From Liolophura sinensis (taxonomy: Eukaryota; Mollusca; Polyplacophora; Chitonida; Chitonidae): a DNA stretch of 64,000 bases. Each line of letters opens with the position of its first letter. Position 1 is the stretch's first letter. Under the pieces are notes generated by a model. It worked only from the letters and a program-made list of their open reading frames with translations. It was not told the origin of the DNA and did not search any database. A program made the position numbers and the translations under genes. Positions 2,624 through 60,600 of the stretch are shown here, one piece after another. The DNA is taken from positions 51,013,187 through 51,077,186 of the forward strand of contig NC_088301.1 in assembly GCF_032854445.1 (NCBI RefSeq), given 5' to 3'.

Positions 2624-5600
2624 CTAAAATGATGCAACAAATGCTTTCACACAAGTCACAATATCTTCCAATGACGCCTCGCAAACAGGCTGTGTTGAAG
2701 TGTTAGATTCTACTGCTTGTGACAAGTTCTTGTGCATTTGTGGTCTGGTATTAAGTTCCTCTAAAATTTTAAACAATCCCGCTGGTGCGTGCTGCCGTCC
2801 GTTATCCATGCTCAGTGCCCGCAACACCTCGTTTGCAAACTTTCCATAGTGTGCTGTGGCTGCGATAAGCATTGGCCGATCAATTTCGAGATACCTGTCT
2901 GCAACTACCTTGGCCACAGCGGTATGAGGGTCCAGCAGGTAATCTGTGAAGATAAAGCACTAGCAGAATATATGTCCAGAAACACTCGGAATGAGGCAAG
3001 CCACCGAATCGAAAGAGCCAAGCAAACGCATATAATATTTATAACTGCGGATAAAATTTGCGTATGAATAAATTGATTTGTGCGAAGAAAGCCGAGGTAA
3101 ACGACTAAACGACCTATGTTTGGTATGTTACTCAGAACCTTTTCGCCCATAGACTTGGACGTAATATTGTTGGATGAGAAATGATCTTCAATGCACTAAA
3201 ACAATGCATTAAATCTGCGCAAGAGGTTATAAAATACAAAATAAAACATCCCAAATTCTGCTTAAACTCACTGTGTTCAGTAAATGTTTCTTTAATCATG
3301 TCCATGCATTCTTCTTCTGAGCACCAATCTGATAAAAAGTCCCGCTGAACTGTGCTCCGCATCTGTATAACAAAATGTATTTCGTGCACATCCGGCCTTT
3401 ACATATATATACATTACTATTAAGTTATAGACCGTGATATCATAAAAAAAAACTTTCACCATACGTCCAGTTGTTTTCTAAAGAGGAGAATTTAACGATG
3501 AACTTTAGCTCGACAGAATGCATGCTTGGTGCCCATTGCCCATAGAACAAAAACTCGTTTAATAAACATCTGTTTTATTAGATTATTTCATTGCAGTTTA
3601 CAATATTACTTTTTCACGTTTTGCAATGACTATGGGTACAGGAGAACCGGGAGTTAACAACTGCCTTTCCCCAGGTGGATACAAAAGCCTTCTGACAAAG
3701 CAACGGAAAACCCGGGATTTGATCGTGCGACTTCATTCGTCAACAATATTTATTTATTTCATTGATGTTTTACGCAGTACTAAAGAATATTTCATTTATA
3801 CTACGGCGGCCAGCATTATAGTGGTTGGAAAACGGGCAGAGCCCTGGGGAAACCTATGACCAGGTTGCTGACAGACCTTCCCACGTATTTCCGGAAAGGT
3901 AGTCAGTATGAGCTCATAGCGACCACTTTGGTTAATTCATTGCGCTGCCCTGACACGATACCAACTCAGTCCTAGAGGCCCCTCAACAGGCGATAGGCTG
4001 CAGCGAGAGCAACCCCTTTGATAAAATGAACCGGCGAGGACCCCATCAGGCTGAACATGCATATGAGCACGTACAAATCCCAAGTCTGATAAACACATCA
4101 TAAAGATATGACTGTGGATTCAATAAAAACTGCAATGAGAAGCCTGAATACCTGGTCGTTAATTTCAAAGAAGTCTTTGGATTCCAGAGATGTGTACAGT
4201 TCCCGGATGATATCGCCACGTCTGTCCGAGATGTGCCACAGGTATCTTTCTAGGTTAGATGATTTGAGGATATCGATGGCAGGGGAGACGCTCAGGTGGA
4301 GTTTCCGTGAGAATAGGTCATATTTTCCTGTCTTGATGAACTGACTTAGGACATTATTCACGTTGGAAGCACAGATAAGTCTTCCGAACGGCATGCCCAA
4401 ACGCTTAAGAATACAATACACAAACACATTTTCTTATTGATTTGTCATGTACATCGATTCTGGAGTCTCCTTACCAATATCAAGTCCCAAATTATATGCA
4501 TCAATTTATCTTAACAAATATGATGTTTTTTAATACTGGAACACATAAAACATTTTCATTTGTCACTAATCTTTGTTTTGATTATACGGATACCCAATAT
4601 ATACTGTGGTAAATAACACCAAAGCTGCAACAGCTGAAGAGATGTTTTACATTTGAAATGTGATCAAAAAGTTAATAGAAATGTTTAAATGATTGCCAAC
4701 CTTTGCATAATAGGCTGCTAATATATTCCCGAAGTTTCCCGTTGGTACGCAGCAATCTACGTGTTCGCCAAGCTGCACAACACCTTGTTTCACGAGATCA
4801 AGGTAAGCCGAGCAGTGATGGATAATTTGTGGAAGGAGCCGTCCCCAGTTGATAGAATTTGCAGCGCTGAAAACAGCAGACATGTGATTTTGTGATCAGA
4901 TACAACGTCCTAAAACGGAATCATCTCATAGATAACCGTGAAATCAAAAATCCGTCAACAGAAAGATCATAGAATTTAAAGAGAATTTCTCTGATACGTC
5001 TTGTCAAAATAAGATAAGTTAACGTTTTAAATTTATGGAACGATATAAATATATATGTACATCAAACAACACGGAATGCAATATCACAGACTGATAAAGA
5101 TAAAGAATATATGCTTTGTGGGACATAATTTTACGAAGTCAGAGACAAACATTCTATCCATACCTTAAATAACAGTTATGTTTCTCTTTTAACTCCTTAC
5201 AAAGATCGACATCCCGAAAAATCTTTTTGATTGTAGACTGGCAAAAGTCAAAGTCTGCGTTCACTCCTGTGAGAAGATATCAAAGATATAGATCCAGGGC
5301 AGGCTGGGGTTTGTCATTTTTCGTTCTACTTGATCGCGCTTTAGGAAATTGACCGAAGTGTTAAAGATCATGCCAGCTGTGCAATGTTATAATGTAGTTT
5401 TGATATCATCTTGCCAACATTAATTTTTAAAAGCAGAAGCGGTCCGTTAAAGGCTCAGGCCTTTCTATTGCTACCCAAAACCACACTGAGAGAAAAGGTT
5501 AGGCCAGCAGATTAAAAAATCTGAGTTATACGAGTGAGCTAATGCAACTCAGAAAACTGAGTCATAGGACAGCTGATCTAGTCATATGACTCAGTTTTCT

Positions 5601-8600
5601 GAACTCAGTTATCTTAATCGTATAACTGAACCATAGTTTTCTCCCAGCGCGGTGTTGGACGCCAGTTGAGCCTTTGTGGGACAGTTAACGATCGATGACG
5701 CTTGTGTGGCCTTTATCACAGTTTAACGTTCGTTTTAAGATCACTTGATTTCCACCAATATTGAGAGCACATCTGTACGTCACATGTGAAAATGTTCGTT
5801 AGTAATTTGCCATAATCTGACGGTTACCTTCTACCACGACACTGACCGCCATGAAAAGGTGTGAAATAAGCACTGTGTTAACAACAATCAAATAAATAAA
5901 TAAATTAATTTTCAGAAGTGACTGGAGATATACCTGTGCTCGCCAGTGGTGCTTATATACAGGATGCATGTATGCCTTCCACATGTAAACCTCGATGTCC
6001 TCACGCTTATCTTGGACTCATGCTCAAGCTGAGAAGTAATTGATAAAATTAGTTTACATGAAATACCTACCGATTGAAATTGTTCTGTGGCCGTTCATTG
6101 AAGTCATCTGCGCCTTCTGTATACCACTGACTCCGTTTTCTGGGTAGAGCACCATAACAGCAATATCTGTCTCTTCTGCAATATAAACACTATTACATTA
6201 GTTAAAATTTAGCATTTTCATCGCAAGTTGTTTCAAGATATAGAACTGTAGGTGTCCGTTATTTACTCACATACAAACAGGTTCAGATGACTTACATATA
6301 TGGTTGTTCTAGGATGCTCTCTATGCACAGTGTTTCTTGCTTATTACATAGAATGTATCATTACCTGTAATAGTAAAGCTTTTGTTGTATTGAATTAATC
6401 ACATATATGTATATATTTTTACATATGTATGATGTTAAACGTTTTCACCAGACAGCCTTGAAAATCCATCGAGTACTGCTCCCCCCGTGTCCCCAGACGT
6501 GGCTACAAGTATTAGGTGCCTGTCAAGGAAAACAATCAGGAATATAAAAATTTTACTCCGGAATTAACTAAATCCTTTATACTGTACTTTACCTAAAGAT
6601 TAGCACGTAAAAATGCATTTTATAAGCATGTTAAGACGCTAGAGTGATACTTTTGATTTTGTTGCCAGCACTCACATTTTTCAAAGCAGAAGTTGATCAA
6701 AGTTAACAAACAGTGACCCCATAAAGTGTGAAAATCAATCAGAATCAAGCAAAATTGATCATCTGATAAATCCTAATTTTTAGGTGAAATACAGTATATT
6801 AGTATGCAGGAATGATGAATTTATATATACCCTTACCTATATCATCAAAGTGTACATAAAAAGTTAAAATTACCGTGTATTTCTATGTTCTGGTGACTTT
6901 TCAACCGCATGCTTGAAGAGTTGTGGCATAAGCTGTAGTGACAAATCTTTGAACGATGCGGTAGGACCATGATAGAGTTCAGATAGATACTGATTCCCGT
7001 GAATATGGCGCACGGGACATACGTTTGAATCCTCAAAATTCCCACTACCATAAGCATGACTGAGGAACTTTCTTATGGATTCAGAGTCTATTTGCGAAGA
7101 TGGAATCCACCTTTGCAGAACCCTTAGAGCTCTTTCTTCGTATGACAAATCTACAATTCTCTCTATTTCTTGCAGGCTAAATTTAGGAATGTCGTAAGCT
7201 GGTACGAACAAACCACCATCTTGTGCAAAACCCTGAATAATGGTATCTGAAAAGCTCTTAAACACTCCTTCTTGGTTTGCTGACGAGGTCACACGTGTGG
7301 ACAAATAGCATCTTTCTTCTCTAAATGTCTTCAGGTGATCTATAACTCTCTCAGCTATACTCTCACAAGTTTCATTTTTCCCAACAATAACACGAATATC
7401 ATAAAACTTTTCGTAGAACTGAAGCCGGTATTGAAGCACGTCTTTCATTGTAGAACCATTTCCCTGCCCAACTATACGGTCTGTTTTCATCTTATGTAGA
7501 CGGCACAAGATATCACTGATTGGCACATCGAGGTATACCACGGTACCGCTTTCCCGTAGCTGTGTCATTGAAGCCGTGTGAAGAGGATTCGACCCGCTAA
7601 GTGAAATAACCCGGTTGGATACGTTTAGCTGCTCTACAGCCTTCCCTTCCTCTTGTATAAAACTTTCTTCTCCCACAATACTGAGCTGACGAAGAAGAAG
7701 AAACATGAAAATAATGTAATATTTGTATATTCAGTCCCGTTTGAAGTTAATTGAGAATTCAGCAAAAAAGAAAAGGACTTGTCATATTTGTTTTGGCATG
7801 TCTATTACAAGTTAATCTTAAACTAGAGGCTTTTGTGCCGCAAAAGACCTTTTCATGTGATTTAATCTGTATATTTGAATATTATCATTTGCGCACTTTT
7901 TGGGCCACCGTTGTGCCCCACAGAGGCTCAAGGTGATCATTGTCTATATCCAGTTGCCACATTCCTAGTTGTTTGCTGAGCAGAGAGCCAATCGTCGTCT
8001 TCCCGCTACCTGGACACCCCATCAGGATGATATTCCCACGACCGGTGCTCTACAACAGATTATCCAAGTATGAATGGATGACGTAAACATTTATAGGCAT
8101 GTATGCAAATGTTTATTTCGTAGTTAAACTTTAAGCGGCTAATTTGTAGGAAGCAGTAGGCCTACAGCTATATATTGCATGCAGATAGATTCGTCACATG
8201 CAGGGGTACAATTCTATGTCATTGACTGTTTGGGCATTTACATGAACATTTAGAATAAAACCCTAACTGACAAGAGGCCACATTTCTGTGTGACCATTTG
8301 TCAGCTGTCACACTGTCGTCGCCGCTCTGGGTTTACTATCCATTTTGTACGTTTTTCATTATATTCATGCGCCTTTTTGCAGCTGTTCTCTTTCACTTCC
8401 TCCACAGAAGTCGTGCATTTTAGACCAATCAGCGGCAAGCTTAGGCCATTGCGGTTAACCTAGATACTTCACAGCTGCGTATGTATGACGTCGTGAGTCG
8501 CTGTTGTTTCATGTAGGAATGTAAAGGTTTACTGTACATGTATTATGACGTCATACCGTTGAGCTCAGATCAAAACGTCTTGAAACAAATGTTTCATTTT

Positions 8601-32044: not shown

Positions 32045-35000
32045 ATGTTCTTCGGCCTCTACTTGCTACTGGCTTTCGGAGGTGAGTTATGGATTCTTTC
32101 TATCCTGATGATTTATGTGGATATCTTGGTTTGAATAAGCTTCTTTCTCTTGCATTTCTTTGCAAATGCAGATGGTGCAAATACAACAAGGCTTTTCCAT
32201 TATTAATGTTTCTTTGGGGTGTTTTTGCACTGTACGCCTTTGTATTGTTACAGCAATGCTTTCCGTTAAAATGCTAGACTACATTTTATAATTCCACGAA
32301 ACAGTATTTAATCCCATTTTGTTAACTTTCTTTCAACAGTAACTTTGTGCAAATCAAAATTTTACCTAAGGAATTATTACTAACACCTTGTATTTGAAAA
32401 TGCTCCGCAGGAGAGGAGAGGTTATTTGGCTATTAAAGAAGACACCATACAATATGCCAATACACCGCACTCATAAAATTGTCGGGGGAGTAAAATTTTA
32501 ACTCCTATAATCAGATACAACGCTCTCAAACTGTTGTTTTACAAAGTGATGCATATTTCTTACACATGGAATTACAGAGGAGTCATGAAATAGATTTACA
32601 GATTCCAAGCGTTGTAAATTTTTTTCTTGGCTTGTTACTGATCTAAAGTTACATGTTGCCTAATATTAGAGGCTTTCGAGATGACAGCGTTGTAATATTT
32701 GGAACTGAAACGTATTCTTTCATCCAAGGTTCTGGAACTGCATAAGGCTTCTTGTGACCATGGCCTTATCTAGCACTGTAGAGCTATGAAGGGCTTCTGT
32801 CCTCTCCTTTTCTCAGCATCAACACTCAGTGATAAGGAATGCGATGGTGTAATATTTTATTCCCGTGTATCATTTTCTAAGAATCAATTAAGGATGATTC
32901 CTTGGACTTTGATAAGGAGGGCTAGTTTTATGTGTTAGATAGCTGACTCGTTTCGCAGTAAATTACTGTATTATTTAATTTTAACACATATTTAAATCTT
33001 GATTTATGAGTTTAAGGCACAAACACACATCCTTTTTCCAGGAACGAGCATTTTTACGTCAGCAATTAACGAGGAAGAAAAATTATATTCTTTATAAAAT
33101 ATGATAGAAAATAGCCACGTAGCAAGGAATATTTGTGAATCGACCTTTTGTAATGTCCATACATGCAAGAAATTGGATGTCGACAATGCATCGTTCTTTT
33201 AGTTGTAACATTTCTTATATTTAAATCACACGTTTCAGCTTTTTAACAAATAGTTTTATTATTTTAACATATAGTTTTTGAATTTTGAGTAGACTGTGTT
33301 TTTCTATGTACATAATTTGTCCAATATATTTAACACAAGCTCTGTATGTAAAAAGTGAGCCATTTTATTCCATATTCCACGTCAAAATGCATTTTAAAAT
33401 CTGAAATGGTAGGTTGTAACTCATGAAGCTAGAGTGGAATGGTTCCACAGTTTCTTCACTGAGCGGCAAATAAAACCAGTCACCAAACTGAACAAAATCT
33501 GTACTGCCTCAACCTCACAAAAACAGACGACTGAGTCAACTATGAGAAATATAATGGATATGGAAACACTTCCACATTGATACATCCATGCAAAATTAAA
33601 GTGATAAAATTGCGATCCACCTATTCACAGATCGTCGGACCTGTACGTCCACCTGCTGGGTGTTTGCGCCTATAATGGCCGATAATCTAACCTAGCATTG
33701 TAATCTCGATAATTGCCAGAGTTACGAAACGTCACAGCTTAGCCCGGATAAATGCTAGACCACTGAGTAGTAAATTAACCCAGTCAATCTCATGCACTGT
33801 AAGGTTCATATTGCTGGCAAGTGATAAAGGTGAATAGTTCTCCACGTGTTTGCTATGGATACGCCCTGCAGGAGAAATAAATCCAGTCGTCTGTGTAGTG
33901 AATATTGACAAATGTATCACAAACAGTCTGCAAAATGGTCATGGACTACACATTACCCGTTGTCTTGATCTCAGCTAACGCAGCATCTGTGTGGTGTCAG
34001 CTGAGAGCTTATAAATAATTTACCATAATCCTTATATGGCCTCCAGTATGTTATATCGGCATGTGCATAACATCCAGTTTATATAATAGCTTCTAATGAA
34101 AAACTACAGAACATCAACCACCCATGACAGGCCTGATACACCCACAGTTTGAGAATCACACTATCAATGTCAATTACTTCTTTTATATATACTTTGATGA
34201 CGCTTGTTCGTTATCTTATTTATACACGTTTAAATAGGAAATAACGGTTATACTTCTAAAAATTGTTATATTTAATGCAAAAGCAAATAGTTTCATCTGG
34301 ATTTGAACCTCCAACGTCATTAGAGGGTTAGAACAAGGTGTTTTGGGCCTGCCCTCGATCTAGAGGATAATCTAAATGTGTGCATCTGTGTAACAATATA
34401 CACAGAGGTGTACGAGGCGCGTGGAGATGACGTAAATCTGTTGAGGCCAGTATAAAATATAGCCGACTATACACGACAGTCTGCAACACAAATTTCAATT
34501 CTCTTTTTAGTTTGAGCTAATGGGTTTTGGTTGATAGAAGCCGACATATCACAATTCCCATTATTACATAAATATTGTCAGACTAGAAATCTAATGCATC
34601 AAATATCGATTTTTACTAATTTACATCATCTATTGTCAGAACGGTTAATATGAATTGTGTAAAACTAGGTGACATTCCAAGTGTCCGAGTCCATGGATTG
34701 AGTTTCCAGTACAACTTGGAAAGTGTTAGTCGACGACCGGCAATAATGTAGCCTCGAGTGATCAATATATAATGTCAACAATCTTCGGAAAAGATAACAC
34801 TGTTACATCGCATTTGGTGTCCTTGGCACCAATAGAGAGCATGGTCGTTTACATAAATACAAAAGGCTATACGCTTGGAGATTGAAACCAGAGCAACAGT
34901 GTGATAGCTGTCACACACAACCGGTGAATTCCAGTCTCTTGTCAATTCACCTCAGTTAGAGTTTTATTCAAACTGTACACGAAAAAAGGCACAAAGGCCA

Positions 35001-38000
35001 TGACAGATAACAGATTTGCGCCATAACACTCGTATTTTCCCGTCACAATCATCAACATTAGATTACACAAGTAAAAGTAAAGGACATATTTCACGAGCCT
35101 TAGACTTCTCGTAAATTGTATGTTGGTACACTATTCTGTAGTGTGACAGTGTCACAATCAAAGGAGCACCACTTTTGTTCATTATCAAATTTATTTAGAA
35201 TTGTAATGAAATTATCCCAGAAATTTGTAAAGGGAATATACGCTAAATCTATCTGCTTGAAATACTTGTGCATTTGTTTAAATCCATTGGTGATAACTAA
35301 AAGATTTCACAAAATACCAGATATGTGCCTTTGTCCATTTAATCACAAACTATGTGTGCCCTGAATCTGACCATTGTGTTATTACAAATCTATTGTTACT
35401 GCCGTAAGATAAGATTATATACATTATACTTCACTTCTTACACTCGACTGGTTGTAAACGTACTCACTTATTGAAAACTAAAACAACAAATACACACACC
35501 CTGATATTGAAATATGCACCGTATTTAAATTAATAAGGTAAATGGTAATCCTGGTATTCTTGGAATCTTGCAGTATAAATGTAGAATTAGCTGCGAATTG
35601 TTAAGGTAACAAACATCCGCATTTGTGTGATATATGTGAATAAAGTTGCAAAGTTGTACTGAATCAGTCGACTCATGGTTATTTACGGTGGCTCCATTCC
35701 TTAATCTCCGGTAAAATATCGTATACAGCTCGCGAAACTGGCGAAGGTATCCCACTGGAATGCTTTGATCAGCTTACTTTGGTAATTGTGGCTCGATGTG
35801 GGTCTCATTTCCGTTCATCATCGTTAAAGGTGACGTATGCACGTCAGACGATTTCCATTTAGGGATACATCTATTTATCAGATCGTTAAACGTAGTGCCA
35901 GATTCACACAGTCCCTGTATAACAATTAAATGGCTGGAGTCTGGGTAGTGTTGCATTTCCCCATGGGTTGTCAAAGACGTTCAGAATGAGCAGTTCCGGA
36001 TATATGGCTGTCTAGCCACCCACACTATATGAATGATCGAAAGGCTATTTCACTTCGTCACTGCAACCATTATTATACGTGTATTTCATAAATACAGCGA
36101 GTGTTTCCATATAAATGGTTACACACCTGCTTTGATATGCCAGTGGCATTGTGTTCATTGGTAAGACAAGGAAAATTACATGGCTAACTTAATTTGTTTG
36201 TAGGTTAATGTAATTCTGGCAAGATACTGCCAGATAACTCCTATCAAAATTCCCCTAACCCTCTAAGGGTGAGCTGAGCTTTAATAATTACCTATTATGA
36301 ACTATTTACCAATATCCCGGACTGCATTAGTTACATATTTTTCTTTACAGCGTCGACGACGTCAGGGTTCGATCTTTGTAAATATTTCGGCGGGACATGC
36401 GGCCAGGGTTGTACCAATACTTTGACTCATAGGTGGAACATTTCTCTCTGTCCAGATGAAAGGTTACTGTGTTGTGCAAATCTCCCTGTTTTACCTCTGC
36501 AAAGTCAAGGTAATGTGGTTGGAAACTGAAATGAATTTAAGATGTTTCTTTAAGGTGATAGGCCTACACGTTCGTTGCTTCGATTTGTTTAGAGATGTTT
36601 TTTACAACACCAATGTGAGCAACCTGGTGGTTTAGTCCGTATAGTTTAGTGTTGACATATTTTATTGTCTCAAGAACGGATTAACGAACCTGTAAATCTA
36701 ACTTCCGTAGTCAGACGGGTCAAACTGATTTCCCCCAAACGGGCTATCATTCTGTTCATCGCTTACAGCTAGACAAATGGCCACTAACATTCTTGCTCCA
36801 CACAGTAGTCTTCGATATTCTTGCAATGTTCAAATCCACGAGAAGATTAAAATATTCATGTTTTGGCTTTACAGCGCAAAATCCGCTGAAAGATTACCTG
36901 TACGTTGCTTTGTTGGATAGTTCGTGTATTACAGCTGATATTCTGTTCTCTTTCGCTGTAGTCAACAACCTTTACACACACCTAAAAGGTTTTTTTTGTT
37001 TTTTAATTCGTTTTATTTATTTACTTAGAACATCTTTTCTACAGACGTAGGTCAGTACATGCATGGACACATGGAGGCCCAATCGAACCTTATAAATCTT
37101 ATATTTACAGTAGTGCAAGTGACCCATATTGGTGTCTCGAGTGCCCGAGGCTTGTTTGGGCACTGTATGGGACAGGAGCTAAAAGCTCTTCGCGCGACTT
37201 TTCATGGATGAAGTGCTGGGTACACACCTCTGATGGAAGCGGTTTAAAGCTTGGAACAAATCGGATATATCGGCCTTAATGTTTGCTCTTAACGGCTGAA
37301 GCATGACTGATGGAAGAATATAGGTATAAATGAAAGAAAAAAAACTCACTTGGAGTGAAACTTCATTTTCAACTGGCATCTACACCAGAGGGTCGGAGTG
37401 AATGTTTGGCAGCCACCATATTCCAGCATGTTTTGATAAACCAGGAAATTAATTTAATTTATTAATCCTGCATTTCATTTACTCCCTGCTACAACCCACT
37501 GCAGTATTTTCGGCGAGCATCAACGTCCACGATATCCTGTTCTTGGCTTACATATCTGTATGTCCACACATCCCGTCTCCCTCTTGAACAGCGCACCAAT
37601 TCAGTAAAAAGTGTAACATTGGCAATCCTTTTACAGGGTCGAATTCCACAGCCGCCCCGCAGTCCACAACGACCACACCGCCTACAACGTCCACATTGGC
37701 AACAACAACTCAGACTCGACAAACCCCAGTAGCATTTTCGCTCCATCCACGTCGTAAGTCTTGAAGAGATTGATGTCATAAAATGATCATTTGAGTGACT
37801 GACTGCATGTAACAAAGTTAGCTGTTTTCCCGTATAAAGTGCACGCAATGTTACCTGAACCGTTGAGCACTACATCAAATTTCCAATAACCTTAGGGATC
37901 GGGTAGGTCGTTGAATTTATCGCTCAGTGTCATGCACATATGTCCTCCCTTGTCTTTCACACACGATATATCTGCATCCGTTAGATGATTTTCTTGTCAA

Positions 38001-41000
38001 ATAAAATACAGATTTCATCTAATGCATGTGATAATAAAGAACAAATTTCCATGTTCTTCCATATCGATGTCTTCTTAAATGAACAAAACATGATATGGGA
38101 TCTCTTCCATTTGTAGATAAACGCTGCGGCACGGTTAGCAGTCAGAGTAGATTAAAGAGAATTGTGGCTGGTAACTATGCGCGCCAAGGGTCTTGGCCCT
38201 GGTTAGTTTCTCTGAGGACCGCTCTTGGGTACCATATGTGCGCTGGGGTGCTCATATCTCCAAAGTGGGTGGTAACCGCAGCTCACTGCTTCAGATTGTA
38301 AGTACCATTGGCTGATCGCATGGGACTGTCATTATGAATTACCAGTGCTGATTTTCTTCCACCGAATATTGTACTGAATGTCAGTAAAACGATTAAAAAT
38401 AAACCTTTGCACTGTCTTTCTCAGGTATAATCCGCTTTGTTACTATTTGAAATAGATACAGGAAATATAATATAATTAAAGACGTACATGACAGATTTGA
38501 CATAAGTTAACATAAATGAGCGCAAGCAGGATACATGAACAGGATTTTTGGTATGTCACGCTTTTGAATTCTTTTTTTGTTTTCTCGAGTAGCAAAACAA
38601 CCTGATGTGTCTGCCGTTATGTTCTGGACGTATGAATTCGTTAAAACTCAGTTAGAGGTGACTGAGTGCAAATCCCGTCAAGCGAAGTGCCTTAGCCAAA
38701 CAAATATTCTGAACTTAATTAACTCAGCTTCCTAACAGCATTTTGTGTTAAGTAAATCTTGGCTTAATATACATTTACTGTGTTTCCCCCCAGTTTTCTC
38801 TACCCCAGGTTCTGGAGGGTTCGCGTGGGTGAACACAACTTGGCCACCCGTGACGGCACCGAACAAGACCTTCGGGTGCTACAAATCATTAAGGTAAGCT
38901 TTGTGATAAAATGCTGTAACTCAGCATTGTATATCTGCAGGAAAGTGTATACTTATTGTAGTATACTTATTGAATATTCCAAATTAACATCGACTCGAAT
39001 CGTTAGACGCGCATCAGCTTACAGGCAAACGTAAAACAACGAATACAGTAGTAATATATTTTTGTGACAAAAAATAGGCTGATCTAACATCGACGTTCTA
39101 TCTGCCCAAGGTCTACCTTGAAAGGAAAACATATATGATCGTCCAAATGATATTGTCGTCTATTGCCAAGAACATTTTGGGTGACCAGTATGTTTTATTG
39201 TTTTTAACGGTAGGATCGGTGTTGTTTTAAGTTTCTCCTCAAGCTACAATTTCATGACATAACACAAGAGTTTGTTGGTGAGAGTTTGTGAACCGTATAC
39301 CCAGTGTTAAGAGACTCTCACGTCACAAGAAGTTTAGTCAATCTACAGAGCTTTTAATGTAGAATAGCTCTTAATGTCCATGTAAGTAAAAAACGTTAAA
39401 CAGTTTATTAAAAGATCTAGTGAAAGAAAATATAAAAACAAACTGAAATGACGTCAGAGTTCCTCATACCCCCCCCCCCCCCTTTCCGGCAGTAAGGCCC
39501 CACCTTACAATTAGTCCAAAATACGAACAACTATTTTTAATATTTTATTTGGCTGTGAGGTTTCTTAATGTTGAGCTGTGTTTTCAGCCATTTATATAAT
39601 ATAACATATATCAAAGATACGGCGAGTTGGCAAATTGTTACACTTAACCGGTGGAATCTTGTCTCCACAGTTAACATCAGTTAAAGCTTTATTCGAACTG
39701 TTTTTGTAAATTTGCTACGCCCTCACCATTTTTGATTGCTGCAAAACGTGTCCAACGTTCAGAAAATGGCTGTAAATTGGACAGTGTTTGTGGGGGCCTA
39801 GGATAACCTAGGCGGTCTAGCTATCTCATTCAAATGTATTCCAAAATTACTTCCATAAGAAAGTGTGAACCTGTGTCAAAAAAAATATTTTTCATATTAG
39901 CCTCTATGCCCGATGATTACAGGCCCATAGTATATTAAATGTTTATTACTGCAATCAAAAACTTGTATATTTTAGTCCTAGAATAATTCTAATTCATATA
40001 ACCTTGGTCGTGATACCTCATACGGGTAACCGGCACATCGATTCGAACAGTATACACACGCTTCATCTACCGCTATTTCACATAAGATGATTATATTGCT
40101 ATGCCACAGACTCGGCTCCTCTTCCCAAATTAAAAGCTTTTTTTCCAAAGTAGTTATTAGTTGCTTCTGTCCCACATCACATAGAATCCAGCAAATGCTA
40201 CATATTGTGACAAGATATATACGCGCCATGTGAATGATCCTTCAGGTATCCAAGGGAGGGTAATAAACAATGTCAAAATCCCCACGTCTTCGTATATAGA
40301 TATAAGATGCGATGGGCCATCTGGCCAGTATGTAGTTTTCTTTAATTCTAGCTAAGGTGGAATATATTATTTATAGCATTTGCTCTATACGATGTTTAAG
40401 GCTAGATATATCAGATGAAAATGAATGAAACGTCTGGAGCCTGATATTAGTAATGAATGTAGTCGTGTTAATATGTTCTCTTATTAACATAATTCTTCAT
40501 AACATATTAGGAAATATTGTGATATGAAAGCATCCTTCTGATATGACTAGGCATGTTAACAGGTGTTAAAGGACGGATTCAATCCCACCTTTTGTAATAA
40601 AAGACTTACAGCATTTAGAGCAAAACCAGAGCAGTGACTATGATATGATAATTGACAAATGCATGGTCACACGTAATCCGTGAAATACGGCAACTTGTCA
40701 GTTCACCTAGGGTTTATTCTAACTCTTCATGCAAATGCTTAAATAGTAGCATATTACACCCCTCTCCTTCACCCGAGGCCATGAGTGAATCAGAATTAGG
40801 TTTAAAAAAGGAGTGATGTTAACTGCGATTTATTAGACATCACTCGTCTAGAATTACTTAAAATGTTGTGTTATCACATTTAAGACACAATAACATTAAA
40901 ACAATACAAAGGACGGTCACTGGCTGACAGGTGTAATCATGCCTATGTGAACCTTCCGGTCATTAAATAAACAGTTCAGAAAAGGTAAAACAAAAACTTG

Positions 41001-43360
41001 GAAAATTCATTTTGTTTTGTTTTGTCCATTTACATTAAAAATATGTTAACAATGTCCCGGAGATTGAAGGCGTTCATACAACGGTGACCTAAGAAACGAT
41101 ATTTGTGACTTTCTGATTTTGATAACTGATATAACTCCAAACATCTCACAACATGTTTAAAAATTACTCATTTCCAATACGTGTTACAGTACCCAGGTTA
41201 CCAAGACAGGTGGCATGCGACATTGAATTCAAAGAGAAATGGTCAGCTGTCCGGGCGCTTCAGTCACGATTTGGCCCTGGTGAAGTTGAGAGAAGACGCA
41301 CCTGTCGACCAACCCTTTTGCAACTCCATCTGTTTAACATCGCAGATGATGCCGTCTCTGGTAGCCAACGTCAGTGATATTGACCGAGATACAGTGATTT
41401 TCACAAATAATAACCAGTGCTGGGTCGCTGGCTGGGGAGATACCAAAGGTAAAATTCGTCAACTTCAGGGAATTGTATTCGTCCACTAAATATGACTATA
41501 TATGATCAATTCAATTTCCTTGCTAAATGTTTTGCCAAAGGTGGAAAGGAACTGGTCTCTTTCGGTTCAGGTGTTAAAGTATCATTGAACTCTATATCCG
41601 CATATTAGACTTGTTCTTTGATACGTCCGTCAAACCGACAGGAATCTATTGGTGTGTATTTTCACAATTTCCAGGGCATTCTCCTAGAGAATCTGTTCAT
41701 AGACATAACACACACACACACAATTACTATTCGTCGAGAAAAATTGGAATATGGTGTGATTAAAAACAATTACTGGTTTCACAGATAGAGCAAGAATTTA
41801 TTCTATGGCTCTTTTACTGAAGCCGTAATAATCATATCCCATGTACTATAGCTTAAATATTCAGAGTAACTCCCCTGAAGGGATTCAGCGAATGGTATTA
41901 ATTTAGTTTTATCATCCAAATGTTATCAACTTATGTTTCCCGGGAGAATAAAAATTTAATTCATAATGTTTTCAGTATAATCCACATCAGGCAACTTGAC
42001 GCACTGCTCCAAATGATAAAAACAGTTTATTATCCACCTTGCGAATCTGTTTGACTCATTGATTAGACGGTTTATCGTTTATTGAATATTAAATGTCATA
42101 TTTCCTCTTTTAGAAAATTTCACCAATACCTCGTTAAAGGAAGTTCAGGGATATGTGATTGGTCATGAGCAGTGCGAGAGTATTTGGCAGAAAGGGATCG
42201 GCAGCGATATGGTTTGTTTTGGAAATGGAACTTCTGGGCCATGCAAAGTAAGATATCATAATTGAGGCTATGTAGTAGTTGAAAGACTTTATTAAAGATA
42301 AACCCCAGCCTGCAAGCACTGTGCGTTGCAAGCATATCCATCAAAGATTATATCATCTTGCCCATCTAGACAGGTCACGTCATTTAAAGGGTTAATGTTA
42401 TTTATAGATCAGTGATTAGACATGCATGCAACCGAATATACGGTCAATCAATACATCAAAAGCCTGATTTCATTTGCATTAGAGATAGTTGTGTCAGAGT
42501 AGAAGGTCTGAGCGAAGTCAATCTATCTTGGTTACAAATTGCATGCCAAGTGGAAGGGCCTGTGTATCGAATAATAAGTCTGTGGGTAATGGCAACTGGA
42601 GACTTCCAACTTCAATGATATTACATGTACCTGAAAATAATAAATTAATAGAGTAGATTATATGACAATCGCTGATGGAGAGATGTAAAGTATTACATTG
42701 AAGACAATGATAGAGCCTTGCCATATGGTCACTTGTACTAATCCAGGCCTAGATCACCTTGGTGTGCTTTTACCTTATACAGTTGTCAGGAAAAAGACCT
42801 TGGTTTCCTCAGACACTGCATGTCTTTCTCCACCCGTGCATTTATCACCGTCGTATCTTAATGAGATAGTCTTGAGGCGCTGGTAAATTACGAAATAAAA
42901 TCAACGAATGAACATGATAAACCCCTCCTTCTGCAGAGACTAATCTCTACATGGTGTCTTAATATATGCCAATATAAAAGATTACATTGTGTTCATGTTG
43001 TGTTCATATGTTGAGTTCAATTTATCTGACGTCACTAGTCTATAATTACTTAAACATGTGTCATCACATAGAATAAACGTTTAAATGAAAACAATACAAA
43101 GGGGCCAGGCTTTAAGATGTTCACGGAAATCTTAATTTTATCATTATCCCCAGGGCGATTCCGGTGGGCCGCTGATGTGTCGCAAAAATGGCCAGTTTTA
43201 TCTGATCGGGATTGTGTCGTGGGGAACAGAGCAATGCATTCGCACAGGCTATCCAAGTGTATTTACCAGGATCTCCAACTACATTCCATGGATCCGTCAA
43301 ACCATGTCCGGCGTGCCAAGCACACAGGACGACCAGCCGGAACAGGAGCCTTTTGAATAG
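32045..43360 (+). CDS. Secreted S1 serine protease with N-terminal six-cysteine (defensin-like) module, complete, eight exons
   Basis: Exons are 32045-32081, 36351-36509, 37637-37753, 38117-38297, 38794-38893, 41190-41448, 42114-42247 and 43154-43360. The product is 397 aa with exact phase closure. Exon 1 encodes a short hydrophobic signal peptide ([12 protein letters not shown]). Exon 2 is one compact module with six Cys at about 22, 29, 33, 46, 53 and 54, spaced C-x6-C-x3-C-x12-C-x6-CC. Exon 3 is a Thr/Ser/Pro linker (66-104), likely O-glycosylated. The protease domain follows the activation site LKR|IVAG (R119-I120). The triad is H161 (TAAHC), D225 (HDLAL) and S332 (GDSGGPL). The usual Cys before the activation site is present (C108). 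The S1 pocket looks non-tryptic: Gly at chymotrypsin position 189 and Ser at 226. It is probably an extracellular or haemolymph zymogen with a role in defence or digestion (inference). The module could instead be a short clip domain. Confidence 0.92.
34880..35090 (+). repeat. Dispersed repeat family B, copy 1 (protease intron 1)
   Basis: AACCGGTGAATTCCAGTCTC, TTGTCAATTCACCTCAGTTA and GTTTTATTCAAACTGTACAC match 39640-39740 and 40620-40960, and more weakly 44440-44560. Confidence 0.55.
36351..36509 (+). other. Exon encoding the six-cysteine defensin/clip-like module
   Basis: This single exon, bounded by phase-1 introns on both sides, encodes protein residues about 13-65 including all six cysteines. 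Symmetric phase-1 boundaries are the classic arrangement of a shuffled extracellular module. The spacing C-x6-C-x3-C-x12-C-x6-CC falls within the beta-defensin pattern and matches big defensins in its first two gaps. Arthropod clip domains share the final CC but normally have longer gaps. Assignment is by cysteine spacing only; no structure or search backs it. Confidence 0.6.
39469..39482. repeat. Poly(C) run
   Basis: Fourteen or so consecutive C bases, within protease intron 5. Confidence 0.9.
39640..39740 (+). repeat. Dispersed repeat family B, copy 2 (protease intron 5)
   Basis: TTACACTTAACCGGTGGAAT and AGTTAAAGCTTTATTCGAAC match the family core. Confidence 0.5.
40620..40960 (+). repeat. 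Dispersed repeat family B, copy 3 (protease intron 5)
   Basis: GTCACACGTAATCCGTGAAA and CAACTTGTCAGTTCACCTAG match copy 1. The right end (ATCACTCGTCTAGAATTACT to AAAACAATACAAAGGA) recurs at 43026-43105 in intron 7. Confidence 0.6.
42745..42900 (+). repeat. Diverged SINE fragment, protease intron 7
   Basis: CCTTGGTTTCCTCAGACACT, TTCTCCACCCGTGCATTTAT and CACCGTCGTATCTTAATGAG resemble the SINE 3' half; weak match. Confidence 0.4.
43020..43110 (+). repeat. Dispersed repeat family B, partial copy 4 (protease intron 7)
   Basis: GACGTCACTAGTCTATAATT through GAAAACAATACAAAGG matches 40838-40912. Confidence 0.55.
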
Positions 43361-51681: not shown

Positions 51682-54600
51682 ATGAGTTCCTTCCCAGGGA
51701 AAATGCGTGAATACGACAAAATCTCCCTTGATAGGTTTGACAATTACAAGGGAAGTTACAACTTGAAGTCGACAGTGTATTTTCTGTCACATTTTCACAA
51801 AGGTATGTTTATACAGTTTCTTCCGATAATAGACGGTAGATATTATTCATGACCCAGTTTTCGTGTTTTGATGCCCCAAGTGCTGAAGTTTGCATGAAAT
51901 GACAAGCTTTCTACGTCTTGGTAGGCTGTGACAGTAATTAATAGTGCGTGTTGTTATTCATCTTAAATGATAAGTGTCCAGGAGCACGCGTCTCCTCGGG
52001 TGAAATTATGTAACAGCAACAATATACACTGAACAAAAATATAAACGCACGAACAAATATTTTCTGTTATTTTTATGTCACAAAATGTAGTACATATCCC
52101 AAAACAATGGGACATATTTCTGAACAATTCAGCTTCAATTTGCGAGCATTGCAATCAATTCTCAAGCAATAGCCCTGCAGTAATGGCAGGAAGAGGACAA
52201 TGGGGGTCAATGGGCCAAGTTCACAGACGTCAGTAACGCGTGTGATCACCATTAGCCTCGCGTAGAGCTGTACACCGGCGACGCATGGACATCACCAAGT
52301 TGTCAATTGTGGGCTGGGGGATGTTGTCCCAGTCCTCCTGGAGTGCCACTCGCATTTGGCGAATGTTCTGGGGAACTGGAACCCGGTGGCGGACACGCCT
52401 ATCCAGAACATCCCAGAGGTGTTCAATGGGTGACATGTCTGGTGAATACGGCGGCCAGTTGAGGACAGGAATATCCTCCTCCTCAAGGAAGTCCCTGCAT
52501 ATCCTGGCAGTGTGTGGGCGGGCGTGGTCGTGTTGGAAAGTCAAATGATGGAGCACCACAAAGGGCGCAACAGTAGGTCTAAGGATTTCATCTCGGTAAC
52601 GTTGTGCATTAAGGTTGCCGTCGATGAAATGCAGACGTGTGCGCTGTCCATGACAAATGCCTGCCCACACCATGACACTTCCGCCACCATAAGCCACCCG
52701 TCACAGGACATTAGCGTCAGCATACCGCTCACCAGCACGGCGCCAAACCCGAACTCTGCCATCAGCATGGTGCAGCTGGAAGCGAGATTCGTCACTAAAG
52801 AGCACAGTCCTCCAACGAGCAAGTGTCCAGCGCACATGAATATTGGCCCAGTCCAGTCGTGTCCAACGTCGGGCTACTGTTAGGTCGATGCCCTGGTGTG
52901 GTCGACGTGACCGCAGCCGGTTCCTGACTGTCTGGGCTGAAATCCGCCTGTTGTGAAGACCGACAGTCTCATCAGCAGTCCTGGTTGCTGGGCGGGTCCG
53001 ATCACGCAGGTGTTGGAGCCGCATGTGCTGGTCTTGTGCGGGCGTGGTCACACGTGGCCGGCAGGCATGTGCGCGGTTGACTGTGGTACCAGTCTCTCTG
53101 AAGCGAGTCCTCAGGCGGCTGATAGTGGAATGATGCACATTCAGTTGGGCTGCCACAGCAGTAACAGATAACCCAGCATTAAGCATGCCAATGGCATGCT
53201 CCCTCATGATTTGTGACATCTGTGGCATGTCGGCATGTGGCACAAATCCACACTTTGGGGTGGCCTTTTACTGAGCAAGCTGTAAGGAATGTCTGCGTGT
53301 TGCTCACGCACACTGACCATCGCACTGTCACGCCCCATTGGTCACATGAGTTGACTTTCAGCATATGAGTATACCCACTCAGAATGGTCAGTTGCAATGG
53401 GACCACTTGTGTTGTGCAACACGAAGGACCCATTAAACAAATATATCACTGGTTTGACCATTTCCAAATAATGGTCAGTTTGACTCGGATATATAGGTTG
53501 GTGCGTTTATATTATTGTTCAGTTTACTTTGAAAATCCATTCTGTCTAAAAGTTTTGGTGGGTAGTGAATAGTGTGAGAGGCGATTTTATTTAACTTATA
53601 TCCAATCCAAACTTCATGAAAATAACACTTCTTTGATGTGGTGCAGAGCGTACATGATGGTGGTAAAAAGTGAATGAAGTCATGTTCACCTGTCGGAGGT
53701 CATACTAGTTATTTATTGTACAGTAGTTCATGTGTATCTGTTGGACCAAAAATTACCATAAAGTTTGACACAAGGGAATGTTTTAAGGGTGTGCATATGT
53801 GACATTTGCCAGTAAATGTGCAGATCTACATATGGCTCTTCCCTCTTCACCAATGTGGTCGCTGTGAGTTCAAGTCCAGCTCATGCTGGCTTCCTCTCCA
53901 GCCACATGTGGGAAGGCCTGCCAGCAACCTGCGGATGGTCCTGGGTTTCCACCCACCATAATGCTGTCCGCCGTCGTATAAGTGAAATATTCTTGAGTCT
54001 TGCGTAAAACACCAATCAAATAAATAAATAAATAAACATCGCAACAACCTACACATCAAAACCACTACCAGAATATATAGTGGTAGTGCATAACATGTTC
54101 AGAATATATGCTAATTAAATCCTTTCTTATTATGTCCGATAATCATGTAAGATAATTGCAAGTATCACAGCACTGAGAACTGTTTAAATTATTAACTTAA
54201 CCACCCAAATTAAGACACAAAAAATATGCTTTTATATTCCTCAAACTGAATCACGGCCTCAACCATGTTTACCTGTAGTCCAAGAAGTTGAACATTGATG
54301 CTTTTTTTTTTATTCCTGTCATTCATGGGTTCACCAACTGACCAGGTAAAATTTAGAAAGAGAAGACATTTTAAATAATTAATTTTACAAAAAAAGTTTC
54401 CCAGCATGCAAGTGCCTGGAAGCGTCCTTTCAAATAGTACAAGTTGAACAAAACAGAAAGAGTCAGAGCGGGGCTACAGTCACATAACAGTAATATTAAC
54501 ATTGATTTGTTTATCATCGAGAGACAGCTGATGTATTAAATATCTAGTTTTCCAAAAACAAGCAAAGTCTGCAGTTATTTGGATCCGTGCCTCAAGGTAA

Positions 54601-57600
54601 ATTTGCAGATGGAAGTTTTGTTTTCTAGGATTTGGCGTAGTTGCCTTTCTTACCCTTTCCAGTGCTTCCTCAGTATCGGTACTCCTTTGTGGATTCATTG
54701 AGTCTTTATTACTGGTATATGTCATTTATTTTTTTATTTATGAAATATTTACAGGGTTGTCTTCGACATTATGGCCACCTATAGATATAATATTTATATA
54801 TACATTATGCCACCCCTGAGCCATTATACTGATACGGGTTAACCAATCGTAGCACTATCTCCTTGATGCTGAATGCAAAGTTCCTCTTTTTTTTTCTTAA
54901 GGTCGTAGGTGTGACCCGATCTAGTATTAACCCTGGATCTACTGCCACAGTAGCGAAACCTCTACCAGCTGTGCTATTGGGGCAGGTTCTAATATTGTGT
55001 TCATGATTAAATAGAACAATTTGCATTTCTTTGCAGATCACACTGTTGGTCTTAGCTCTGACAGTTTTTTTGAGAGGATGAAGATGAGCAGGTAACGTAT
55101 GACATTTCCAGCAAAACTCATAGTGCGGTGTATTAGACTATAAAAGCCATCAAATTAACACATCAGTATTCTCTATTTGAGTGGTTTTCACTAAGTTTTG
55201 ATTTGATGTTTTTCAAGTATTAAAATCATTGCCACTAATTATATTTCTGAATTTCTTATATTGCTCATGATATATAAAATATATACATGGAAATATGGAT
55301 AATTCATTTGTATTAGCCAGACATTTGTGTTATGTTGTATTAGAAAAATTACCTGTGATTGATTATTTTTCACTTGGCCGGTTTTTGTAACATTGCATTG
55401 CGATGTACATAGTAACCTTTTTGTACTGCCATTGTACATAGTAAACTGTATAAGAACAATTCCAATTTCTATTTGCTATCCCAAGCATGAACAACAATGG
55501 TATTTCACTATAAGCCCCTTGAGAATTTCATTTATTTATTTATTTGATTGGTGTTATATTTATTTTATAAACTTTGTTATATTCTATTCATTAGATCTAC
55601 TGAATGTCAGTGTGGTTCAAGGAAAATTACTTTCTTCCTTGTAGAAAAGTGTTTATTTACTGTACAGAAGTAACAAAAATCCTGATGCTAGCAGATGACC
55701 ACTATAAGCACTTGGAGAAATATGTGGTAAGATCACTGTCACAGTGTACATACAGTACTTGGCTAAAAAATTTGCCCAAAAAGTGCATTTTTAGGAGCTG
55801 ATAGATGCTTAAAAAATTACTTTTGGTGCTGAAACTTATATTCCTATCATCCAATCTTCCAGACCAACCTCAAAACATTGTTCTAAGATCAACAGAACTT
55901 TCACAGTCCGGAAGAATGAGTAACATATGGATGCAATCTTAGGTCAAATATAGTAAAATTGGTATCTTTGTATATCTGACATTAAATGTGTGTTTGTAAC
56001 AAACTTCAGTTGATACAAACAAACATCTACCATGGTTGCGACTGACTTTATAGACAACAAAATGTGCTGATATTTGAGATAACCCACTTGCTAACTAGTG
56101 CATATAGATTGAATCTGTGTACATGTGTGCATTCGGAAATTTTGACATAAGTCTAAAGGAAACCTTGTGATTCTGGGCCCTGAAATCAAACCTAGGTCGG
56201 GTGATGCTATGGTACTAAGACTTTGGTGGCATGGACTCACTCTGCCACAAGAAGACACAGTATTTATGTGTATGTACACAAATATAATGACTCATCTTTG
56301 TGACTGAAAAATTGATAAGTACATAAAAATCCAAGCATCCACACATATACATACATGCAAGTGCATGTAAATTCTGTGAATTGTGTTGGCTTGTTCGAGT
56401 GTAGATTTACATTATGTAAAATGTTATGTTAAATACTTGTAGATTGTGTCAAATTTGCTCAAGTATCATGTACGCACTCTTGAAGACTTGTAAACTTTCT
56501 GGTATACATGTATGCTCACAGAGATTTGTCAGCTTGCTCATATATGCTCACACAGACTTGTCAGCTTGCTCATATATGCTCACAAAGACTTGTCAACTTG
56601 CTCATATATGCTCACAGAGACTTGTCAACTTGCTGGTGTATGCACACAGAGACTTGTCAGCTTGCCCATATATGCTCACAGAGACTTGTCAGCTTGCTCA
56701 TATATGCTCACAGAGACTTATCAGCTTGCTGGTGTATGCTCACACAGATTTATCAGCTTGCTCATATATGCTCACAGAGACTTGTCAGCTTGCTCATATA
56801 TGCTCACAGAGACTTGTCAATTTGCTGGTGTATGCTCACAGAGACTTGTCAGCTTGCTCATATATGCCCACAGAGACTTGCCAACTTGCTGGTGTATGCT
56901 CACACAGACTTGTCAACTTGCTCATATATGCTCACACAGACTTGTCAACTTGCTCATATATGCTCACACTGACTTGTCAACTTGCTGGTGTATGCTCACA
57001 CAGACTTGTCAGCTTGCCCATGTATGCTCACAGAGACTTGTCAATTTGCTCATATATGCTCACAGAGACTTGTCAACTTGCTCATATATGCCCACAGAGA
57101 CTTGCCAACTTGCTGGTGTATGCTCACACAGACTTGTCAGCTTGCCCATGTATGCTCACACAGACTTGTCAACTTGCTCATATATGCTCACACAGACTTG
57201 TCAACTTGCTCATATATGCTCACACTGACTTGTCAACTTGCTGGTGTATGCTCACACAGACTTGTCAGCTTGCCCATGTATGCTCACAGAGACTTGTCAA
57301 TTTGCTCATATATGCTCACAGAGACTTGTCAATTTGCTCATATATGCTCACACTGACTTGTCAACTTGCTGGTGTATGCTCACACAGACTTGTCAGCTTG
57401 CCCATGTATGCTCACAGAGACTTGTCAACTTGCTCATATATGCTCACAGAGACTTGTCAATTTGCTCATATATGCTCACACTGACTTGTCAACTTGCTGG
57501 TGTATGCTCACACAGACTTGTCAGCTTGCCCATGTATGCTCACAGAGACTTGTCAATTTGCTCATATATGCTCACAGAGACTTGTCAACTTGCTCATATA

Positions 57601-60600
57601 TGCTCACATTGACTTGTCAACTTGCTGGTGTATGCACACAGAGACTTGTCAGCTTGCCCATATATGCTCACAGAGACTTGTCAGCTTGCTCATATATGCT
57701 CACAGAGACTTATCAGCTTGCTGGTGTATGCTCACACAGATTTATCAGCTTGCTCATATATGCTCACAGAGACTTGTCAGCTTGCTCATATATGCTCACA
57801 GAGACTTGTCAATTTGCTGGTGTATGCTCACAGAGACTGGTCAATTTGCTCATGTATGCTCACAGAGACTTATCAGCTTGCTGGTGTATGCTCACAGAGA
57901 CTTGTCAGCTTGCTCATATATGCCCACAGAGACTTGCCAACTTGCTGGTGTATGCTCACACAGACTTGTCAGCTTGCCCATGTATGCTCACAGAGACTTG
58001 TCAACTTGCTCATATATGCTCACACAGACTTGTCAACTTGCTCATATATGCTCACACTGACTTGTCAACTTGCTGGTGTATGCTCACACAGACTTGTCAG
58101 CTTGCCCATGTATGCTCACAGAGACTTGTCAATTTGCTCATATATGCTCACACTGACTTGTCAACTTGCTGGTGTATGCTCACACAGACTTGTCAGCTTG
58201 CCCATGTATGCTCACAGAGACTTGTCAATTTGCTCATATATGCTCACAGAGACTTGTCAATTTGCTCATATATGCTTACAGGGACTTGTCAACTTGCTGG
58301 TGTATGCTCAGACAGACTTGTCAACTTGCTCATATATGCTCACACAGACTTGTCAGCTTGCCCATATATGCTCACAGAGACTGGTCAATTTGCTCATATA
58401 TGCTCACACAGACTTGTCAACTTGCTGGTGTATGCTCACAGAGACTTGTCAATTTTCTCATGTATGCTCACAGAGACTTATCAATTTGCTGATATACATA
58501 TATGCTCACAGAGACTTGTCAGCTTGCTCATTTACACATATGCTAACAGAGACTTGTCAACCTTTCATACATGCATGCTAACGGAGACTTGTCAACTTGC
58601 TTGTATATGCTCATGGAGACTTGTCAATTAGCTCAAATAGGATATGCTAAGGGAGACTTGTCTTCTTACTCATTTAAGTACATATATATGCTCAGAGCCT
58701 GTATCTTGGTTTACATAATATATATCAAGTGCATGTACATGGAGATTTTGTCAGCTTGCTCAGAAATGATTACATATACATGTACAGGTAGATATTGTTA
58801 ATTTACTCAACTTAATTGTCAAGTGCCTCATGCATTTGTAGATGTTTATGTCAGTTCATTGCTTAACATCTGGGTCTCTGGAGTACATCCATATGTCTCC
58901 AAAACTACAAAACATCATGCATGTACTGCGTGTGAAACATATAAAAAGGATTGTTGAAAATTGTTGTATATTTGCCAGATGTGAATACTGTTTCATCTTT
59001 AGAGATTTTACAAAATAATTTACAGTTTATACAAAGCTGTACTTGTGCATGTAGCTGAGTTGTCAAGGTATTGCAATTCCATTTTTAGAAGACGTTAGAA
59101 GTGGACGTTCCAACGCGCATAGTAATCCCAGATGAATATACAGATAAGGTATGAGTTTGTTGCATTTAATTTTTACACCTTAGTATTGGCACTAATAGCA
59201 GTTCATCATTTACTATCATCAGAGGGGGGCCTCCGTGGCTCAGTCGGTTAGCGCGCTAGCGCAGCGTAATGACCCAGGAGCCTCTCACCAATGCGTACCC
59301 TGTGAGTTCAAGTCCAGCTCATGCTGGCTTCCTCTCCGGCCGTAAGTGGGAAGGTCTGGCAGCAACCTGCGGATGGTCGTGGGTTTCCCCTGGGCTGTGC
59401 CCGGTTTCCACCCACCATAATGCTGGCCGCCGTCGTATAAGTGAAATATTCTTGAGTACGGCGTAAAACACCAATCAAAAAAAAAAAAAAAAAAAATCAT
59501 CAGAGGACTCCAGAATTTTTCCGTCAGATGCTTAAGTCTTTTTCAGGTGTGTCAGTGTAAGTAGTACAGAATGTCATAACATTTGTGCACCTATATTTAC
59601 CTTTGTTGTGAACGATCCTTGCCCTTCAATAGCCAGGACACATGAAGTGTGTGTTCAAACCTGGCCTGGAAATTGGACAGGGAATGTGTAGATTCCCATG
59701 CTGTCAGTGCTTGTGGGGTCATGGCGACATTAAGCCTTTGGCCAAAGATGAAGGCTGTCATTCTACAGATTTAAAAATTCGTGAATATTCTTTTAAACAA
59801 CAATCAAATAAAATATCTTTGTTGTGGATACTTTGGAGATTAACATACTTGTGGGTTAACCTAGAAAATGAGCAACCTTTGCCTGAACATATTAGATATC
59901 TATTTTAATCCATTCCCACTTCAGGAGAATTGTTGTGTTTTAACTTTTATCCTACCATTGATTGAATCATTTGCCATATGCTGTGCATTGTAAGCGTCAC
60001 AAGTTATAAACACAGTAGTATGAGTACATTGTACATTATTCTTTCCCTTCTTTTACAGTTGATTTTACATGTATTTTCCTGTAATCTGTAAATGTTTTAC
60101 ACAAACATTTCAAAGTAGACATCCCATCCTTCCCTTTTTGTTGGGTTTTTCCATGTTGTCTTTTACCCCTTTCACACAGGCAAAGTTAAGCTGTTTGAAC
60201 TTGCGAAAGTGGCTTTGAGCGAGTTTGATGTCGTTTGACTTAATCTGGTGTATTTGCCCCAGCTAGCAACATGGCTTTAAGCCAGTTTCAGGCCATATGG
60301 TTCAGATTTGATCGGGTTTAAATTTTGGCCATGTAAACGGGGTAATAGTGTCAGTACCGTATCTTACATGTGTACTTCTACATTGTAGGATGAATACATA
60401 ACTGTAACCTTGATACCAGCAGGACACTGCCCAGGCTCAGTGATGTAGGTATACATACATGCGTAAACGTACATCTATGGATACGGACTCCTAACAGCAC
60501 AGCACTCTCTATGCTCACTTAACATCACTGCCACCGCTACACTAATTCTTTTGATTTTTAGGACATAAAGTAGTAGTGCTGAAAGCAAAGAATTACATTT

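Follow-up and report, generated by a model that had tools for sequence, protein, structure and literature searches.

The window analyzed here, a stretch of 64,000 nucleotides from the chiton Liolophura sinensis, carries a gene whose predicted product is probably a secreted S1 serine protease zymogen with an N-terminal clip-like, likely disulfide-knotted regulatory module or prodomain. With splicing read from the genomic DNA, the gene model comprises a signal peptide, a six-cysteine exon, a Thr-rich linker exon and a complete zymogen. At the level of this model, the observation first made in a sequence-only reading of the same DNA—a defensin-like cysteine module joined to an S1 protease—is confirmed as a whole. 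That reading had also placed the gene among the lophotrochozoans, rightly, Liolophura sinensis (the corrected name of the species in PMC12441733) being a mollusc. The assembly searched has 609,464,459 bases in 632 contigs, and the consulted part of the genome paper (PMC11068029) gives 632 scaffolds and 609,495,693 bases.

A predicted secreted zymogen with a six-cysteine exon

Eight exons (Table 1), separated by GT-AG introns of matching phase throughout, join in frame into a predicted protein of 397 residues. Exon 1 is the top of nine candidates in a scan of window positions 16001-36350 (about 20 kb) for an ATG, a hydrophobic run and a phase-1 donor; its donor reads GAG/GTGAGT (slashes mark junctions here and below), an in-frame TGA lies upstream, and the reading frame is continuous into exon 2. 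The latter, between the acceptor TTTCTTTACAG and the donor CAAG/GTAATG, is in phase 1 at both ends and encodes 52 residues, with an NIS N-glycosylation sequon in the loop between Cys3 and Cys4. The Pfam Trypsin profile matches residues 120-376 over all 220 of its positions (E 3.2e-54), the His/Asp/Ser triad is intact and the zymogen junction reads R/IVAG, as in a whole S1 protease.

Table 1. Exons of the predicted protease gene, in window positions
Feature	Position	Strand	Content
exon 1	32045..32081	+	predicted start codon, likely signal peptide (12 residues), phase 1 end
exon 2	36351..36509	+	six-cysteine module C-x6-C-x3-C-x12-C-x6-CC, symmetric phase 1-1
exon 3	37637..37753	+	Thr/Ser/Pro-rich linker, phase 1-1
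exon 4	38117..38297	+	RHKR/CG (linker Cys), RLKR/IVAG activation site, catalytic His (TAAHC); Pfam Trypsin
exon 5	38794..38893	+	S1 catalytic domain
exon 6	41190..41448	+	S1 domain, catalytic Asp (HDLALVKL); SICLT, likely partner of the linker Cys by the pairing rule of PMC1761132
exon 7	42114..42247	+	S1 domain; GPCK at end, placing Gly at position 189
exon 8	43154..43360	+	GDSGGP (catalytic Ser), SWG, Ser at position 226, acidic tail, stop at 43360

The cysteine exon, spaced 6/3/12/6/0, lies exactly where the sequence-only reading had put it, and the symmetric phase-1 introns reported there hold for exon 2 and extend to exon 3; the Thr-rich linker and the complete zymogen domain behind it reappear in the gene model and in the Pfam Trypsin match. 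The interval given for the feature, 36351-43360, does take in the protease exons up to the stop codon but leaves out the likely signal exon, although the numbering of the module as residues 13-65 implied one. Exon 2, in phase 1 on both sides, can be skipped with the frame kept, and it might belong to another transcript or be untranslated; such an artefact of the gene model is nevertheless extremely unlikely given GT-AG sites and matching phases over eight exons and an arrangement seen again at three further S1 loci, against 0/40 on the antisense strand (see below).

A chance origin of the six-cysteine module is unlikely. The pattern C-x4-10-C-x3-7-C-x8-18-C-x3-8-CC has a single instance when both strands of the window are scanned, and 6 out of 150 windows simulated with a first-order Markov model hold one. 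When the module served as protein query against the genome, the hits were its own locus and, at E 2.03, locus L002, which lacks the pattern. Six loci were taken for weak matches (L002-L007), and the strict pattern is found in L004, antisense to the match; single strict-pattern instances can thus arise elsewhere. The L004 instance, CYVSLTKGDFCSVYDCFYRQLNIGDCLKQADCC, lies antisense to a match of PF00711 (C1:24418193 of the assembly, G000) and may be due to chance or be a coding frame.

The window holds further features outside this gene. On the minus strand, within 4101-7730, the frame 6873-7730 matches shikimate kinase and the N-terminus of threonine synthase (Pfam), a domain pair as in threonine synthase-like 1, and the frame 4101-4433, for which Pfam gave no match, may be a further exon. 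A transposase remnant, also on the minus strand, occupies 52233-53267, with a helix-turn-helix frame (52704-53267) and a DDE_3 frame (52233-52700) and an interruption between them. Positions 56507-58639 are a minisatellite of about 66 copies of a 32-base unit, open in several plus-strand frames of up to 424 codons, which may give rise to false gene calls.

Recurrence of the module at other S1 loci

Recurrence was assessed in 40 stretches (220,505 bases in all) reaching 3.8 to 6.1 kb upstream of S1 N-terminal exons; these represent a subset of the S1 genes of the genome, and modules farther upstream were out of reach. The sense strand carries the strict six-cysteine CC pattern in 3 of the 40 (L010, L011 and L025) and the antisense strand in none, which makes 4 of 41 loci when the window gene is included; looser scan hits, none of which the strict scan returned, were left out before this count. 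In all four loci a phase-1 acceptor and a phase-1 donor flank the module, with cysteine spacings of 6/3/12/6 in the window, 6/5/10/5 in L010, 7/6/10/6 in L011 and 9/3/13/4 in L025. The downstream order is also similar, in exons that are predicted and were assessed by eye for the three paralogs: module, separate Thr-rich exon and ECG...DKR/IVGG in L025/L051; module and RCG...QTR/VVGG in L010; and module, Thr-containing tail, ECG...IFR/VVGG and S1 domain in L011.

Several other candidates were set aside. Stretches of L013, L015 and L023 were rejected as six-cysteine modules of this kind, being LDL-receptor class A modules upstream of S1 exons (Ldl_recept_a E 5.6e-11, 8e-12 and 8.7e-13, respectively); the Pfam check covered one such stretch for each of these loci, and L015 has one further. 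The hits in L047 (cysteine repeats), a stretch of L013 without phase-1 sites and an alternative-frame hit in L011 were dropped.

Apart from their cysteines, the four chiton modules appear hardly alike: for the six possible pairs, shuffle counts range from 66 to 1656 of 3000, the lowest being that of L010 and L025. The protease domains that carry them do not cluster in a tree made from 93 columns of two exons for the window gene and 19 of the 40 loci. Support in this tree of 20 short sequences is weak, and it therefore offers no evidence that the modules share an ancestor. Together with the absence of credible Pfam and NCBIfam matches for each of the four, these data are what would be expected of an unrelated, lineage-specific small cysteine module that arrived at the C...CC pattern by convergence and serves to attach the protease to shell, mucus or matrix. 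We consider this rather unlikely, as module, linker, linker Cys and R/IVxG zymogen, in the same phases, reproduce the plan of the clip proteases, and hypervariability is also a property of arthropod clips in the part of PMC1761132 consulted.

Profile, sequence and fold searches

NCBIfam models are built for prokaryotes. Scans of the four chiton modules with Pfam and NCBIfam gave no credible match; the two Pfam models that came up, at E 0.17 and 0.069, are unrelated. The profile search of the exon that the sequence-only reading had proposed as a check matched neither a CLIP nor a defensin model of Pfam. No CLIP-family match appeared in the Pfam scan of the module, and PF12032, PF18322 and PF18398 stayed below the cut-off everywhere in the genome search, in both cases with models that had no positive control. 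PF00711 gave 46 matches in the genome (E 0.48 to 9.6), none of them at the module, and around 92.6 Mb of C1 a tandem cluster exceeds the cut-off only when neighbours are summed; PF14862 gave one match (E 2.44, locus L007), again not at the module. The frame open near base 1582 of L007 (G000 C7:15044811) encodes a hydrophobic stretch and six cysteines arranged C-x3-C...C-x3-C...CC, and its product may be a secreted cysteine peptide of small size.

Sequence searches were similarly sparse. Each module found itself in the genome and, beyond the L002 match already mentioned, only one sequence at E 0.6 with two stops. Against solved structures, the three paralog modules returned 0, 2 and 10 matches, with a best E of 0.27 and no defensin or clip among them. 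An AlphaFold2 model of the exon alone has a mean pLDDT of 53.4, with one helix and two strands of at least three residues, and the best Foldseek match of this low-confidence model in the PDB has E 4.6, so that the fold route yields no inference. MAFFT alignments of the modules were not used as profiles because they misplaced the cysteines.

Predicted substrate pocket and candidate cleavage sites

In an alignment with plasma kallikrein, the Asp of DACKGDSGG faces a Gly, and the Gly of QPGVYT a Ser, in the window protease; we take these to be positions 189 and 226 of the usual S1 numbering. Paralog L010 reads G-A-C-R-G-D-S, i.e., also Gly189. With Gly189 and Ser226 the pocket is predicted to be non-tryptic, and self-activation after RLKR would therefore be unlikely.

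Two basic sites precede the catalytic domain: RHKR at residues 104-107, directly before the linker Cys (RHKR/C), and RLKR at residues 116-119, which, beside being the normal zymogen junction, also fits a furin-type motif. None of the three paralogs has RxKR directly before its linker Cys (a single Arg stands there in L010, KR lies one residue earlier in L011, and L025 has neither), so that release of the module, which is possible through the RHKR site, would be largely particular to the window gene.

The disulfides of clip modules connect C1-C5, C2-C4 and C3-C6. If the module of the chiton protease is a clip-like regulatory prodomain, cleavage after RLKR would fall to a furin-type convertase or a trypsin-like protease, since the pocket of the enzyme itself does not suit Arg or Lys, and the linker Cys would tie the prodomain chain to the active enzyme, so that a cut at RLKR alone would leave the module tethered, as in clip proteases. 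The role of the module may then be that of clip modules in arthropod cascades, namely to dock the enzyme to a surface, a substrate or a partner. A cut at RHKR, by contrast, would separate the module, with a linker that may be O-glycosylated, from the enzyme, and the protein would in this respect differ from ordinary clip proteases.

Comparison with defensins

Beta-defensins have known ranges of cysteine spacing, which served for the pattern test, and the 6/3/12/6/0 of the window module falls inside them, as the sequence-only reading had stated; the agreement it noted with big defensins over the first two gaps is borne out by oyster Cg-BigDef1 (6/3/13/4). On these grounds exon 2 could be a trans-defensin exon, of the beta-defensin type or from the C-terminal part of a big defensin, captured by phase-1 shuffling, whose product a convertase acting on RHKR, the site next to the linker Cys, would release as an antimicrobial peptide. 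This we judge quite unlikely, the likeness resting mainly on a spacing that is common to clip modules.

The best solved-structure sequence match of the module is avian beta-defensin 11 (AvBD11; PDB 6qet; phmmer E 0.063, best of 177,635 sequences), followed by a longer AvBD11 chain (E 0.61). Its score is reached by 11 of 20,000 cysteine-fixed shuffles, and by 5 of 5000 in a repeat, which is suggestive of a resemblance beyond the cysteines, but the sequence had been picked as the best of that database. Both have six cysteines in range, G-G-x-C before Cys2 and an LCP..R..CC end, but the middle gaps are 3/12 in the chiton module and 6/7 in AvBD11 (gaps 6/6/7/6).

The likeness to Cg-BigDef1 comprises the C-x6-C-x3-C spacing, a Cys3-Cys4 gap of 12 against 13 and a phase-1 intron. 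The two differ in the Cys4-Cys5 gap, 6 against 4, and their sequence similarity is at shuffle level, the score of the window module being equalled or exceeded by 1916 of 5000 shuffles with the cysteines fixed; the corresponding counts are 851 for L010, 166 for L011 and 4389 for L025, each of 5000. Moreover, the short signal exon alone precedes the module in the gene model, and the hydrophobic N-terminal domain of big defensins is absent. The net charge of the module core is 0, rising to +2 when the linker is included as far as residue 104, the first of the RHKR site; among the paralogs, L011, the one closest to Cg-BigDef1 in the shuffle test, has +4, while the other two have -2 and -3. The oyster big-defensin domain has a charge of +3 (PMC6805989, consulted in part).

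As to beta-defensins in general, the module shares with them a phase-1 intron 5' of the cysteine exon, but it is fused to a protease instead of standing alone, has a net charge of 0 and is not matched by the Pfam defensin model. In most defensin genes the cysteine exon also carries the stop codon, whereas exon 2 ends in a phase-1 donor. Overall, an antimicrobial defensin is weakly supported. The idea stays alive through PMC7203481, whose consulted part describes, for the genes of both big and beta-defensins, conservation of a phase-1 intron ahead of the Cys-rich region, offers exon shuffling as one hypothesis and records a transcript of a big defensin in a second chiton species, Chiton olivaceus.

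A bolder proposal would give the gene two secreted products: convertase cuts at RHKR/C and RLKR/I would yield a near-neutral, glycosylated trans-defensin-like peptide and an active non-tryptic protease, and phase-1 exon shuffling would have carried six-cysteine modules of the clip/trans-defensin class to several proteases of the chiton. We regard this as improbable; if true, it would support a common origin of clip and trans-defensin modules before the split of arthropods and molluscs.

A clip-like architecture in a mollusc

The clotting, melanization and Toll cascades of arthropods are run by clip proteases, and if the recurrent clip-like architecture in the chiton holds, molluscs have, or re-invented, the hardware of these cascades. 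The chiton modules would also be test cases between clip modules and trans-defensins. Among the matches listed in literature searches, covering titles and abstract openings with subscription papers mostly outside, no report of a molluscan clip protease was found; in the consulted portions of mussel papers that contain the clip-domain term, it occurs merely as a reference title about a crab.

In the part of PMC1761132 consulted, clip-domain proteases are those with six cysteines before the catalytic domain, Cys5 and Cys6 being adjacent. In honey-bee clips, 30-70 residues (average 45) extend from Cys1 to Cys6 and, with one exception, five separate Cys2 from Cys3; group 1 clips have fewer than 16 between Cys3 and Cys4. 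Many of the proteases are of 300-400 residues, clip sequence is hypervariable, a linker Cys is predicted to pair with a Cys in a PICLP context, and tryptic specificity is predicted for all honey-bee members. The window protein likewise has its six cysteines N-terminal of the catalytic domain, the last two adjacent. The module had been called shorter than a usual clip, which is not borne out because its 31 residues from Cys1 to Cys6, at the short end of the 30-70 range, and its 12 between Cys3 and Cys4, as in group 1, both fall inside the ranges of PMC1761132. The sequence-only reading had left three options, of which a regulatory prodomain and a convergent short clip are jointly supported by this anatomy, with the linker, the linker Cys before R/IVxG and its likely partner in the catalytic domain, and by the three other S1 loci that have phase 1-1 modules of this class upstream. 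Support for the remaining option, an antimicrobial module released on activation, is weak.

Some features set the chiton gene apart from the arthropod clip proteases. Its host is a mollusc; the gap between Cys2 and Cys3 is 3 instead of 5 (5 in L010, 6 in L011, 3 in L025); the module has no CLIP profile match; the pocket has Gly189 in place of the tryptic Asp189; RHKR stands directly before the linker Cys; and the Thr-rich linker occupies its own phase 1-1 exon. In view of the gap, the non-tryptic pocket and the profile result, we call the module clip-like and do not count it as a member of the clip family. With the group 1 arthropod clip proteases the predicted protein nevertheless shares a signal peptide, a single six-cysteine module with adjacent Cys5 and Cys6, a linker, an R/I activation site, a length of 300-400 residues, and a linker Cys (RCG, before RLKR/IVAG) with a candidate partner in SICLT (not PICLP) after the catalytic Asp, predicted to be joined by a bond.
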